DNA from: Desulfurococcales archaeon
GTDB taxonomy: Archaea; Thermoproteota; Thermoprotei_A; Sulfolobales; Acidilobaceae
Reading direction: 5' to 3'
Length of the DNA stretch: 37,416 nucleotides
NCBI GenBank assembly: GCA_015521115.1
Contig: WAOT01000017.1
Location: forward strand, 1 to 37,416
Position 1 is the first letter of the stretch. Each line of letters begins with the position of its first letter. This document shows positions 13,517 to 18,820 of the stretch, one piece after another. The notes under the pieces are model-generated. The model made no database searches and was not told the origin of the DNA. It saw only the letters and a program-made list of their open reading frames with translations. Position numbers and translations under genes: made by a program.

Positions 13517-14995
13517 ATGACTAACAGAGTGAGACCGGAGGCTTACTATAGTAGGGAGTGGGTTAGAGAGGAGATCGCAGGCTTTCTACGTGGTAGGTGG
13601 GCTGCATACACCAGGGGAGACCTCTGGGTCAGGTGGGTTGAGGGGGATAGGCCGCTTAAGATCTCCTCACCCGGTGAGGTGTGGGAGGCGGTATCGAAGG
13701 GTGGGGCTAGGAGCTTCTACGGGACAATTGAGGTTTTCAAGAGGTTGGAGGATAGGGCTGACATTGAGTGGGGGTACCTCGAGAACGTGGTGGGGGCTGA
13801 TGGGTTCATTGATATCGATATAGTCCGGGAAGACCAGGTGGGGGCTGCATGGGAGTACGCTATCCGGGCCGCTAAGGTGTTGGTCGAGTGGTTCAAGCTC
13901 CACGGGGTAAGGGAGGGCCTCTACATCCTATGGAGTGGAGCCGGGGTGCATGTAAGGCTCCACAGGGCCTCAATAGATCCGTTCAAGGCGGGCCTTGACC
14001 CGGTTCAGGCCATGTACGTGTTGATGGAGTATGCCTTGAGAGAGAACCTCGACCGGCTGAGGGCCATAGCGGAGGCCAGCCAGGGCCTGGTCAAGGTTGA
14101 GAACGTCATCGGTAGGAAGCGCCTCTTCACAGCCCCACTTAGCCTGCATAGGATCTTAGACATGGCGGCTATCCCCCTAGACGTTGAGGATCTCAGGGGG
14201 TTCACGCCGAAGTGGGCTGACCCGGAGAACCCCCGCTATACTCCAGGGGTCTGGGATCGGTACAGCAGGGGGGAGGCGCAGGAGATCCTGGTGGATGCCC
14301 TTAATAAGCTGGGCCCCTCGCCCGAGAGGACTGTCATATCAGCTGGCATGACGGCTAGGAGAATTGAGAGGATGAGGAGGGCTTCTCCCAGGATCGGGAG
14401 GTTCCCCGTAATGGCCCTCCTCCAAGCGGCCAGGTACTACATCCTCAACGGTGACTTGGAAAAGGCGAAGAGCTTCGGACTAAATAGGGCAATATTCTAT
14501 GCCTGGGCGAAATACTACGGCCCGGCGAGGAGCGCGGCAGCAAGACTCCGAAGGCCGCCTCCAAAATGGGGAGGGAGGAGGGTTGAGTCAAGCAGTGTAG
14601 AGCTGAAACGGGTGCCCGGGATGAATGAGGAGGCTCCAATGAGCAGGGACGGTTGGTTCGTGATGGGAGGTGTAGAGCAGAGGCCGGAAGACTATGACCG
14701 GAACGTCGCTAGAAGGTTCGAAGAGGCCGGGATACCCTATGACCTAGCCTGGAGGGCCGCATTAGAGTACGTGTCACGCTTCCCAAGGAGTATACTACGA
14801 GACCCACAGAAGTTCTATCAACACGTCTACGAGCCGGTGAGGGATCAGTTCGTCGAGAGAGTCCTAGGCCTCTCAAAACCTACACGAATAGCGTTCAAAC
14901 AACCCCCAGGTGTGAATCGTATGGGACAGAAGGAGAGGAGGATTGAGAAGAAGCAGAGGACGCTGCTTGAGTGGTTCAGGGAAGACGGGGAATAG
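13517..14995 (+). CDS. Archaeo-eukaryotic primase-like protein with C-terminal PIP box
   Basis: A 492-residue protein with the three catalytic motifs of the archaeo-eukaryotic primase (AEP) superfamily: FIDIDI (97-102) with metal-binding D99/D101, the nucleotide-binding SGAGVH (140-145), and a late PLSLHRILDMAAIPLD segment (207-222) where D222 would be the third acidic residue. A helical C-terminal region of about 150 residues follows. The extreme C terminus has QRTLLEWF (480-487), an exact fit to the PCNA-interacting consensus QxxhxxAA. I see no cysteine in the chain, so the zinc motif of PriS is missing. It is longer than PriS (about 330-350 residues) and not next to priL. It probably acts as a polymerase or primase-polymerase in repair or damage tolerance. 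The start is ATG at 13517. Confidence 0.75.
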   Translation: MTNRVRPEAYYSREWVREEIAGFLRGRWAAYTRGDLWVRWVEGDRPLKISSPGEVWEAVSKGGARSFYGTIEVFKRLEDRADIEWGYLENVVGADGFIDIDIVREDQVGAAWEYAIRAAKVLVEWFKLHGVREGLYILWSGAGVHVRLHRASIDPFKAGLDPVQAMYVLMEYALRENLDRLRAIAEASQGLVKVENVIGRKRLFTAPLSLHRILDMAAIPLDVEDLRGFTPKWADPENPRYTPGVWDRYSRGEAQEILVDALNKLGPSPERTVISAGMTARRIERMRRASPRIGRFPVMALLQAARYYILNGDLEKAKSFGLNRAIFYAWAKYYGPARSAAARLRRPPPKWGGRRVESSSVELKRVPGMNEEAPMSRDGWFVMGGVEQRPEDYDRNVARRFEEAGIPYDLAWRAALEYVSRFPRSILRDPQKFYQHVYEPVRDQFVERVLGLSKPTRIAFKQPPGVNRMGQKERRIEKKQRTLLEWFREDGE

Positions 14996-15315: not shown

Positions 15316-16836
15316 ATGGGAGATCGCGAACCGGACTCTGTCTACCCGATACTACAAAAGGTTGGGGGAGGAGGGTTTGAGTCCATTAGGAACTACTTCC
15401 TAGAGGGGCACTACAGCAGGTTCATTAAGTTCCTTGGAAGCTCGTCTGAGAGGGATCAGGTAAGGAGGGTTAGGGTTGGAGAGTACATTCTATTCGTGAA
15501 TGAGAGGTTGCTTGAAAACTGTACTGAAGACGTTCGGGGATGGGTCGAGGATATAATAGAAGGCTTCAGGGAAGAGTGTCCCCTATACCCTGAGCCGGGG
15601 CTGTTCCATGTGTTGAGAGAGGCTATTAGGGGTTCTAGTGTTTGTAGTAGGCCACCTCTTGCTGTAGTCGGCTACGATAGGGACACGCGCAAACTATTCG
15701 CCCATGTCCCCCCGGAGAGCCTGGCCCCACTACTCTCACTCAACCCGGAGAGCCTCCGTGATGGAGGGGTTAGCGAGGGGGTAGTTAGGGCTCTCCTCGG
15801 CTTCACACACCACCGCTGGGAGGTCGAGGATCTCAAGCCGGGCCTGAGGGTGAGGGTTCAGGGGGATCTAGTACTCGAGGTTCTAGGCGTCTTCAGCGAT
15901 AATGAGGACTTGGTCAACGCTCTGGCCTCACTTAAAGCCGCATATAGGGCGGCATTAGAGTCTTTCAAGGCCCTGTCCGGTCTCCATAGGGGGCTTTCGA
16001 GGAGCGATCTCCTCGACGGTCTTAGGGGCGACGAGGATGTAGGGGTCGTCCAGTCACTCATATATTTTGAGGCGCGGAGGGTGCTCGAGAGGGTATTCCC
16101 CAAGCCGTTGCAGGATGCTGTGAGGGTATCCGTAACTAGGGCAGTCCCCGACCCCCTATCGGATCACGTGCTAACGTTCATAATACTGTTAGAGGCCGGC
16201 CGCTTTGGAGAGCCGGAATGCAACCCGGTCTCATGTAGCGGGTTCCATCTCCAAAACCTCCCATCGCTCGAGGAATGCCTCCCTGGCGTAGCTGGAGGGG
16301 TCTCTTGGATACTAGCCTCCACCATAGGAGAGGGCTCGCAGCTGCAGCTCATACTCCCTGCTGGTGAGAGGTTCCATGTTGTCAGGTTCGATAGCCTGCC
16401 GTATTCAGCACACCTACTGGCCAGGGCCTATGCTATAAAGCTGCTCGACGAGGGTGTAGAGCCGGAAAAGTACCTCGGGAGGGAGGAGACCCCTGGGCCG
16501 GCTACTGTTAGGGTGATGGATCACAGGGTTATAGGTGAGGGGATCGCCTTGCTCCGCGCCCCACTTATTGAGATGCTGTACGTTCTGGGATCCGCTGCAC
16601 GGCATCTCAGTAAAGTTTCAGGAATGCTTCATGATAACCCTCCGGGTGGTGTTGGTGACGTGGTTGAGAGGCTCCTCCTCTCCCATGCGGGCGGCCTCAG
16701 CGGTTACCTGTTAGGGGTCGAGGGGGGCTCCGACCTAGTCTTCGAGCATAGGGAGCACGGGACTGCCCGGCTGCATGTTAGTAGGCCTGTGCTCCTCAGG
16801 GCTTATACCATGCCTCACTCGCTCTCTATCCGGTAG
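15316..16836 (+). CDS. Hypothetical protein, 506 residues
   Basis: A long, soluble, mixed alpha/beta protein that I cannot place in a family. Visible features are an acidic N-terminal third, several cysteines in the middle (ECPLYPEPG, FGEPECNPVSCSGFHL), and a C-terminal helical part with SAARHLSKVSGMLHDNPPGG. There are no membrane segments or obvious nucleotide-binding motifs. The ATG at 15316 has AGGTGG 6 bases upstream and a TATA-like CTATTAATA near 15283-15291. Its 3' end overlaps the convergent GNAT-ABC gene by 11 bases. Codon use fits the chromosome, so it is probably a lineage-specific gene and not a recent import. Confidence 0.65.
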   Translation: MGDREPDSVYPILQKVGGGGFESIRNYFLEGHYSRFIKFLGSSSERDQVRRVRVGEYILFVNERLLENCTEDVRGWVEDIIEGFREECPLYPEPGLFHVLREAIRGSSVCSRPPLAVVGYDRDTRKLFAHVPPESLAPLLSLNPESLRDGGVSEGVVRALLGFTHHRWEVEDLKPGLRVRVQGDLVLEVLGVFSDNEDLVNALASLKAAYRAALESFKALSGLHRGLSRSDLLDGLRGDEDVGVVQSLIYFEARRVLERVFPKPLQDAVRVSVTRAVPDPLSDHVLTFIILLEAGRFGEPECNPVSCSGFHLQNLPSLEECLPGVAGGVSWILASTIGEGSQLQLILPAGERFHVVRFDSLPYSAHLLARAYAIKLLDEGVEPEKYLGREETPGPATVRVMDHRVIGEGIALLRAPLIEMLYVLGSAARHLSKVSGMLHDNPPGGVGDVVERLLLSHAGGLSGYLLGVEGGSDLVFEHREHGTARLHVSRPVLLRAYTMPHSLSIR

Positions 16837-18820
16837 CCGTTTTTTCTACTGAGATCGTCCCGTAGCCTACGAATACTATCTTGTCCGGCTTCAAGGCATC
16901 AATGACCTCCGGCCTGTTGGTCGCTACGATCAGTGTTATACCTGCCCTCCTAGCGAGCGAGCCTACCTTCCTGGCGACCCTCACAGCTGTTAGCGTGTCG
17001 AGGTGGGCGGTGAACTCGTCGATCACCATTATACTCGGCTTCTCAGCGAAGAGGCTTGCGAGCTTAGCCCTCTCCTTCTGCCCGGTGCTGAGCTCGTTAA
17101 ACCTGGCCCTGTAGAACACCGCGTCGCTCAGGCCGACCATGTTTAGTATTTCCACAGCGGCCGCGGGGTCTCCTGTCTTCTCAGTTACATGTTCTAGGAG
17201 GGTTTCTCCGCCGAACTTTGGCTCCCACTCCCCCGGTAGGAGTACCGAGATCCTCGCACCGCTCGGGGCCTCAGTACGGCCCTCGTTAGGCCTGTACGCC
17301 TCGTTCTCCTCTGCTAGCTCTGGTCTTAGGCTTCCAATGATCATGCGGAGGAGCGTTGTCTTCCCGGCGCCGCTGGCTCCCACGACTACGACGATCTCCC
17401 CTGGGTTGATCGTGAGGTCGGCGTTCCTGAGGACATACTTCTCGACAACCCTCTTCTCCACGCCGAATGCGAGGAGAACCTCGCGGAGGCCTGGTGGGAG
17501 CCTCTCAACGTCGAGGACGCTCCTATAGAGCTTCGTTATGCCCCATAGCCTTATCGGTGAGGGTAGAGGATCCACACGGCCATACCTGCTCCTATACAGC
17601 TTTCCACCGTGCTGGCGTGCGATGGGGTCTTCTCTGAGGAACTTCTCGATCCTCTCCTTAGCCTCCCCTGTCAGGGGGTACATGAGTACGGGCCTGCCAC
17701 TCTTAGTGTCCCACATGTAGTAGAAGCCTGCCTTCTCGAAGAACGGGTTGTAGCGGGCCATCATTGCTATTGTCTCGACAACATGCTTCTTCCTCTTCAT
17801 CTCGGGGACTCTTCTCTCCCTTATCCACTCCAGTGCCGCCTTCACCGCTAACACTCCCAGTCCGTCGCCGCGGTAGTCAGGGTGTACTACTACCCTCGCT
17901 ATTCTAGCAGCTGCGGTGTTAGCCCTGCGGAGCGCTATCTGGCTTATCCGTTCACCTATCATCGCCCTAGCGATGACCGGCCCGTAGAGCCTCTTCAGCT
18001 CCCTATACTTTGCGAGGATCCTCTTCCTCTCCGTTATGGGCCAGAAGGTTGGGTGGAACCAGTCTGGAGGGAACACTTTCTCCCTTATCAGCCTCTCATA
18101 GCCCCCGTCGGGGAGCCTCCGGTTCATTAGTGGTATGGGTGTGTCTACCCTCACATAAGCAACTATCCTGGGCTCGTACTCCTTACGGGAGACTAGCTCT
18201 AGGACTAGGAACCTGCTGCTAGGTAGGCTCCCCCTTATCTCCTGGAGCTTCATGGGCACCCCGTGTTCCGGGCAGACCGGCTGCACGTTCCCTTCAGCGT
18301 ATCGGCCGCAAATTGGGCATCTCCATACCGCTACTATCTCCTCCTTGCTCGCGTAGTGGTGCTGTTCGAGGCCTACGATGTCAACATAGTCCTGCTCTGT
18401 TACTGCTTCCCTAGCGACTACACGGTATTCGTAGACTTTTCTAACGTTCAGGCTATCCCTCCTCTCAAGCCTATACTCCCTCCGCCAGGGGGGCCATACG
18501 AGGATCTCCTCCCCCTCCCACACCCTGTACAGCCTGTAGTCCTGGGGGCCGAGGACTTTGACTCCGCCGACCTGTTTGGGCTCGTCTAGGAGCTCTAGTA
18601 CCACCCTCTCACGTGCACTAAACCACTGGGATATGGTTCCGGTCATCCACAACAGTACCTCTTCTCCCCCATCATACTTGACTGGGAGGACGCCGAACCA
18701 CTTGTAGCCCCTCCTCGTGGTGAGCTTGAATGGGTCTCTACTAACGTACCCCGTGACCCTGACTCCGCGCACAGTCAAGAACTGGCACCCGTATAATTTA
18801 ATGACGGGTGGGAGCACCAC
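16826..18820 (-). CDS. GNAT acetyltransferase fused to an ABC-type ATPase
   Basis: This protein, up to 664 residues, joins three parts. Residues 1-200 are a beta-rich region with a zinc-ribbon-like CPIC...CPEH (C168, C171, C183, H186). Residues 205-400 are a GNAT domain with the acetyl-CoA motif RVVVHPDYRGDGLG (309-322). Residues 455-660 are an ABC ATPase with Walker A GASGAGKTT (481-489), signature LSTGQ (577-581) and Walker B SIMVIDEF (596-603). The usual switch histidine is replaced by Asn in ATNRP (about 633-637). No membrane segments are seen, so it is not a transporter subunit. GTG at 18820 overlaps the upstream gene, while GTG at 18772 sits 26 bases after a TATA-like TTAAATTATA and may be the true leaderless start. 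Confidence 0.8.
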   Translation of the reverse strand: MVLPPVIKLYGCQFLTVRGVRVTGYVSRDPFKLTTRRGYKWFGVLPVKYDGGEEVLLWMTGTISQWFSARERVVLELLDEPKQVGGVKVLGPQDYRLYRVWEGEEILVWPPWRREYRLERRDSLNVRKVYEYRVVAREAVTEQDYVDIVGLEQHHYASKEEIVAVWRCPICGRYAEGNVQPVCPEHGVPMKLQEIRGSLPSSRFLVLELVSRKEYEPRIVAYVRVDTPIPLMNRRLPDGGYERLIREKVFPPDWFHPTFWPITERKRILAKYRELKRLYGPVIARAMIGERISQIALRRANTAAARIARVVVHPDYRGDGLGVLAVKAALEWIRERRVPEMKRKKHVVETIAMMARYNPFFEKAGFYYMWDTKSGRPVLMYPLTGEAKERIEKFLREDPIARQHGGKLYRSRYGRVDPLPSPIRLWGITKLYRSVLDVERLPPGLREVLLAFGVEKRVVEKYVLRNADLTINPGEIVVVVGASGAGKTTLLRMIIGSLRPELAEENEAYRPNEGRTEAPSGARISVLLPGEWEPKFGGETLLEHVTEKTGDPAAAVEILNMVGLSDAVFYRARFNELSTGQKERAKLASLFAEKPSIMVIDEFTAHLDTLTAVRVARKVGSLARRAGITLIVATNRPEVIDALKPDKIVFVGYGTISVEKTATG

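Follow-up and report, generated by a model that had tools for sequence, protein, structure and literature searches.

A candidate clamp-tethered primase-polymerase, LigD/Prim-PolC-like by predicted fold, in a family of Thermoproteota and Asgard archaea

Ku and Y-family polymerases are missing from many archaea, and the sections consulted of two papers (PMC4538821, PMC12019639) treat it as an open question by what means such organisms fill gaps, join ends and bypass lesions. In excerpts of PMC7442782, mycobacterial Prim-PolC, one of the closest described systems, is said to act in excision repair by filling short gaps, and excerpts of PMC12019639 report microhomology-mediated joining without Ku for PriSL of S. 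islandicus. Here we analyse a gene of a heat-loving Desulfurococcales archaeon (GCA_015521115.1), carried on a stretch of DNA of 37,416 nucleotides (contig WAOT01000017.1), the whole of which is referred to as the window. The gene is a member of a coherent unannotated family in Thermoproteota and in Asgard metagenome-assembled genomes (MAGs), and no description of this family was found in the consulted parts of the open-licence papers searched. The family offers a concrete, testable candidate enzyme for archaeal gap filling, joining and lesion passage, and it comes with an apparent clamp tag of its own, with paralogues that provide natural dead-enzyme controls, and with a conserved domain that lacks a known fold match. 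Related genes across many archaea hint at a repair route that has seemingly gone undescribed so far.

The gene is single-copy in its own genome and has the following features.

13517–14995, plus strand: whole gene, ATG start, 492 amino acids, encoding an archaeo-eukaryotic primase (AEP) domain, a C-domain, a linker and a PIP-like (PCNA-interacting) tail
13517–14311, plus strand: AEP (primase-polymerase) domain, approximately residues 1–265, from structural alignment to Prim-PolC, NHEJ polymerase and PriS
13811–13819, plus strand: motif I, D99-I-D101, from conservation in full-length relatives
13934–13951, plus strand: motif II, S140-G-A-G-V-H145, from conservation in full-length relatives
14099–14101, plus strand: E195, putative third metal-binding carboxylate, a conserved acid that is lost in degenerate paralogues
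14129–14149, plus strand: motif III region, T205-A-P-L-S-L-H211, which aligns with KRIxRxPxxLH of PriS
14390–14866, plus strand: conserved C-domain, residues 292–450, from conservation, with no known fold matched
14867–14953, plus strand: linker, residues 451–479, mostly of low confidence in the model
14954–14977, plus strand: PIP-like motif, Q480-R-T-L-L-E-W-F487, with a predicted short helix at 483–489

The AEP and PIP motifs named in the initial annotation, FIDIDI (D99, D101), SGAGVH (S140–H145), TAPLSLH (T205–H211) and QRTLLEWF (480–487), are all present in the protein, and chance is ruled out as their origin because they are conserved across relatives and the core of the tail is enriched over controls. 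The window protein had no match in Pfam or NCBIfam, including the PriS profiles PF01896 and TIGR00335 and the LigD_Prim-Pol profiles PF21686 and TIGR02778, and its sequence had none among PDB sequences. Its relatives score weakly: PF01896/TIGR00335 in 9 of the 63 members of alignment A2 (best 0.0038), DNA_primase_S in 9 of the 29 full-length members of alignment A1 (best E 8.7e-5) and LigD_Prim-Pol in 3 of these 29 (best 0.01), while two relatives that are AEP-only or carry another tail reach 17.7 and 17.0 bits for LigD_Prim-Pol against a cut-off of 27.4. For these reasons many genomes probably carry its members under the label hypothetical. As a profile against PDB sequences, A1 placed archaeal PriS at the top (1g71, E 0.0057), with DxD, SGxGxH and the KRxxxxPxxLH region in register.

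An AlphaFold2 model of the full protein, built from 63 aligned sequences (the window protein and 62 of the 80 named loci), reached a pLDDT of 87.7 and a pTM of 0.68, and contained the AEP fold that had been proposed from the motifs. Its best PDB chain was Prim-PolC 6sa0 (Z 20.2, rmsd 3.4, 250 residues aligned), followed by the Methanocella NHEJ polymerase 5dmu (Z 20.0, rmsd 3.0, 225 residues) and LigD PolDom (Z about 19), so that the top PolDom-type matches lie at Z 19–20 over 220–255 residues; the PriS chains 1zt2 and 1g71 scored lower (Z 15.6), and the best Foldseek E value against the PDB was 2.6e-6. Because the best matches are of that type and PriS ranks below them, the AEP domain is LigD/Prim-PolC-like by its predicted fold. 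Judged by the profiles and partners that define LigD and PriS, however, the protein is a member of neither. In addition, the genome encodes a canonical, separate PriS elsewhere (L171), and the protein is therefore most likely not the replicative primase; the earlier distinction from PriS is supported on both grounds, gene content and fold. The same genome also encodes a second AEP-like protein of 439 amino acids (L172, G000:C13:91778-92044), which adjoins an ORF that by eye resembles a plasmid/virus-type helicase.

Conservation of individual sites was scored in 81 full-length members, namely the window protein and the 80 named loci. D99, D101, G141, G143, H145, T205, P207 and H211 are each present in 81/81, S140 is serine in 80/81, and position 195 is glutamate in 80 and aspartate in the remaining one. 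Because this position, 12 residues before P207, is acidic in all 81 and non-acidic in nine degenerate copies (as judged from the five commonest residues listed for them), E195 is taken as the putative third metal-binding carboxylate. Glutamate in place of aspartate at the third carboxylate is unusual in the AEP superfamily. Position 199 is aspartate in 57/81 and glycine in the window protein. The proposal that IPLD supplies the third catalytic aspartate was mistaken, since the conserved acid of the motif III region is E195 and IPLD lies downstream of it.

The initial annotation also stressed the absence of cysteine. This is correct for the window copy, which has none, but does not extend to the family, as full-length relatives carry 0–4 cysteines; what is general is the lack of any conserved cysteine column in the alignment of 29 full-length members. 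These observations bear on whether the protein could reprime in the manner of eukaryotic PrimPol, by synthesising primers downstream of lesions at forks that carry the clamp. Such an activity would accord with an AEP core related to PriS and with the failure to find a Y-family polymerase match in the genome. It is harder to reconcile with the lack of a primase-type zinc or iron–sulphur initiation module, seen in the missing cysteines of this copy and the missing cysteine column of the alignment, and with the fact that LigD-like enzymes mainly extend, and we regard repriming as quite improbable.

The C-domain (residues 292–450) is strongly conserved, with the successive blocks RFxVMALLQAARYYxLxGDxxKAKSFGLNRAIFYAWAKYYG, QxPEDxD and FYKxVYEPVRDxF. 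Modelled alone, it reached a pLDDT of 83.0 and a pTM of 0.73. It gave nothing beyond noise against Pfam and no match as a profile against the PDB; the best values of its model against PDB folds were E 1.8 in Foldseek and Z 2.4 in VIA-align 2, and against viral folds (BFVD) E 0.49. A relationship to PriX, PriCT or PriL-CTD was not detected by PDB profile, Foldseek, VIA-align 2 or BFVD. The absence of a fold match for this model does not prove a new fold.

At the C-terminus, QRTLLEWF fits the PIP motif QxxhxxaA and follows a linker of low confidence: in the model, pLDDT is below 50 at residues 454–481, and a short helix at 483–489 coincides with the motif. The core of the tail was scored as [LIMV]xx[FWY][FWYLIMV] within the last 20 residues. 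It occurs in 70 of 112 distinct family C-termini compared with 115 of 699 neighbouring ORFs, and when the family tails were shuffled 200 times it turned up in 8.4 of them on average (maximum 16). In a quick maximum-likelihood (ML) tree of the 81 members, from which the tail columns were not specially excluded, the window protein falls in a supported clade of 31 rows, in which 25 of the 27 testable tails carry the core (four rows were untestable) and both core-less tails are from Thermogladius; over the whole tree the state changes nine times. Order-wide, the core is present in 47/52 full-length relatives, with tails taken as the sequence after the last PVRD-like match, a count that is slightly low because L028, scored as a miss, has LLSYL in its full tail. 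Among all full-length relatives it is present in 60/92 and missing in 32/92, mainly in Bathyarchaeota, Brockarchaeota, Thaumarchaeota MAGs and Asgards, in many of which the tail has been lost or eroded. Glutamine at the first PIP position is rare in full-length orthologues. The expectation of a PIP box in close orthologues is thus borne out for the hxxaA core, in the clade as in the order, but not for the glutamine. As a positive control, the genome's two FEN1 copies have the comparable C-terminal sequences QTSLDAWFG and HVGLDAWFG, the second of which also lacks the glutamine. PCNA binding by such tails is established for FEN1 in general, and we infer it for the tail of the window protein as well; the genome contains three PCNA genes. 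The two FEN1 genes (L173 on G000:C40 and L174 on G000:C47) differ from each other and may be paralogues or reflect contamination, which is estimated at 2.81%.

Queried with A1, genome contigs yielded 198 relatives. The hosts of the best 80 of these 198, which were kept, include Desulfurococcales, Sulfolobaceae, Thermoproteus, Thermofilales, Bathyarchaeota, Brockarchaeota, Methanomethylicota, Nezhaarchaeota, 'Thaumarchaeota' MAGs and Asgard groups; the window protein as a single-sequence query matched neither genome contigs nor viral contigs. Relatives at E <= 0.001 occur in 74 of the 197 genomes of the source's order, a count that is the same with a profile of the C-domain only, and matches are found in 145 of 398 genomes of the phylum. 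The order-wide search found no family member in two further genomes from the genus of the window. Therefore, the gene is accessory, and the initial suggestion that it adds a new component to the replication machinery of the lineage was an overstatement. Within the order, the family is present in 8 of 30 genomes with a Y-family polymerase (PF00817) and in 66 of 167 without one. Its presence does not track the absence of the polymerase, and the idea that it stands in for this enzyme as a pattern is unsupported.

The genomic context of the full-length form is not conserved. No conserved neighbour was found in 81 loci or in 36 loci, and a conserved operon was accordingly rejected. The commonest neighbour cluster, an ABC ATPase, was found in 12/81 loci at scattered positions, and neighbour clusters at a fixed offset derive from groups of three to six loci. 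The seven neighbours scanned in the window comprise ABC-transporter parts, a radical-SAM protein, DUF389, a helicase and a GNAT–ABC fusion; the last is a 664-aa chain (16826–18820, minus strand) that unites GNAT acetyltransferase and ABC ATPase domains. Downstream of the gene lies a 506-aa ORF (15316–16836, plus strand) with no Pfam or NCBIfam match. In comparison with the two genomes of the genus, the flanks match at scattered places. A mobile-element or defence origin was rejected as well: the family had no match in 72,556 plasmid records, no relative was found on viral contigs, and the phage matches were two remote ones at 23–26%. Among the recurrent neighbours, judged from their first residues, no mobile-element or defence gene was recognised.

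The family also includes copies that have lost catalysis. Rows of the order-wide search provided nine loci with dead-AEP paralogues of 366–457 amino acids (L058, L060 and L063–L069) and eleven with C-domain-only paralogues, which consist of C-domain and tail and measure 209–279 amino acids as called. The dead-AEP paralogues have no aspartate at 99 and no histidine at 145 among the residues listed, yet all nine keep R295, Q303, R306, R324 and D443 of the C-domain, and eight keep the tail core. In the C-domain-only paralogues, the core is present in 10/11 and the glutamine is in place in 9/11. As tail and C-domain outlive catalysis, the tail is probably functional and non-catalytic partners appear to exist; this persistence is the strongest argument that the sequences offer for both. 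The same observations could mean that the C-domain and PIP form the core of the family, for example as a clamp-bound adaptor for DNA or protein, with the AEP domain as an optional add-on. In line with this are the strong conservation of the C-domain, the survival of C-domain and PIP together where the active site or the entire AEP has been lost, and 12 genomes, among the 74 of the order that match, in which only degenerate copies, C-domain-only copies or fragments were seen. However, an active-form AEP copy is present in the other 62 (some truncated by contig ends; the split was made by eye from the search rows), and the invariance of DxD and H145 in the 81 full-length relatives also argues against an optional AEP. 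We consider this explanation very improbable.

Taken together, we lean towards the most economical reading, in which the gene product is a repair primase-polymerase that is tethered to PCNA, does not depend on Ku and acts in gap filling and lesion tolerance. In its favour we count the predicted fold, the kept active-site residues, the tail and its survival after loss of catalysis, the comparable FEN1 tails and three PCNA genes, the lack of a Ku or Y-family polymerase match in the genome, and the KaiC-type ATPase beside AEP-only relatives described below. In this mechanism, the N-terminal LigD/Prim-PolC-type AEP would bind a primer-template or short gap and add nucleotides by two-metal catalysis through D99, D101 and probably E195, with S140 and H145 placed at the incoming nucleotide. 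The C-domain may position DNA or a partner protein, and the flexible linker with the C-terminal PIP would hook the enzyme to the clamp. Most likely, it would serve excision or break repair, independently of Ku, by filling gaps or by lesion-tolerant synthesis. Clamp-bound action in bypass or repair, as first suggested, is plausible, and we infer the polymerase activity, its substrate and its pathway. Such chemistry is plausible in the lineage because PriSL of S. islandicus is reported, in the consulted sections of PMC12019639, to join independently of Ku. Counted against this reading are the patchy distribution of the gene, the lack of a conserved neighbour that would tie it to a repair pathway, the rarity of the PIP glutamine in full-length orthologues, the loss or erosion of the tail in Thermogladius and in many members of the groups named above, the unusual glutamate at position 195, and a presence that does not track the absence of the Y-family polymerase. 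The report on S. islandicus PriSL, together with a fold nearest Prim-PolC and the NHEJ polymerases 5dmu and LigD and a genome in which no Ku match was found, could instead point to a Ku-independent end-joining polymerase, in which the AEP would bridge microhomologies at double-strand breaks and the C-domain, the clamp or both would replace Ku. We judge this unlikely, as the recurrent neighbours in 81 and 36 loci include no ligase, phosphoesterase or Ku, and a PIP would seem to suit replication-coupled gaps better than free ends.

Beyond the full-length form, which has no KaiC-type neighbour, the phylum search also yielded AEP-only proteins and AEP domains with another C-terminus. Twenty such loci were fetched (15 under 330 amino acids, 5 longer), and D99 is conserved in 20/20, D101 in 19/20 and H145 in 20/20. 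A KaiC-type (RecA-fold) ATPase (PF06745) is present in 12/20 of these loci and lies directly upstream on the same strand in 8/20, the two genes being −35 to 94 bases apart; TIGR03881 (KaiC_arch_4) was above cut-off in all three ATPases scanned. At L181, L183, L185–L188, L190 and L194, the AEP-only gene directly follows the KaiC-type ATPase gene, often with overlapping stop and start. This arrangement resembles an operon of two genes, one for a RecA-fold ATPase and one for a primase-polymerase. The initial annotation had missed these relatives, as well as the C-domain and the dead-AEP and C-domain-only paralogues with the same tail. On a tentative and rather doubtful view, Thermoproteota and Asgard archaea would possess their own repair system organised by the clamp, made up of a LigD-like primase-polymerase with a new C-domain and a PIP tail, non-catalytic partners and an AEP-only arm run by a KaiC/RecA ATPase, in place of Ku–LigD and the Y-family polymerases. 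In such a system, the dead-AEP and C-domain-only copies could occupy other subunits of heterotrimeric PCNA.

The family can be set against several described systems. With mycobacterial Prim-PolC (LigC-associated; 6sa0/5op0) it shares the AEP fold and a chromosomal, non-mobile setting; in contrast to Prim-PolC, no ligase partner was seen, the C-domain and PIP tail are additional, and the window protein is not recognised by Pfam LigD_Prim-Pol. The AEP fold is likewise shared with the Methanocella paludicola NHEJ polymerase 5dmu and LigD PolDom (Z 19–20), whereas the family has no recurrent Ku, ligase or phosphoesterase neighbour and its genome of origin no Ku match. PriS has the same fold and is the top sequence match of the family profile, but the window protein lacks a zinc motif and has its own C-domain and PIP. 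In the plasmid primases PolpTN2, pRN1 ORF904 and PrimPol-PV1, an AEP domain is also followed by a mostly helical accessory domain; theirs is PriCT/PriL-CTD-like, while no match of the C-domain to PriCT was detected, and the family has no helicase fusion, plasmid match or viral-contig relative. NucS and NreA, clamp-docked archaeal repair proteins (PMC4929162), also carry a C-terminal PIP; unlike them, the window protein has a polymerase-type domain, and the word primase does not occur in that review of clamp-docked repair proteins. The fold class is known; as far as the search reached, what is new is the combination of a LigD-like AEP, an unmatched C-domain and a PIP tail with dead and partial paralogues.
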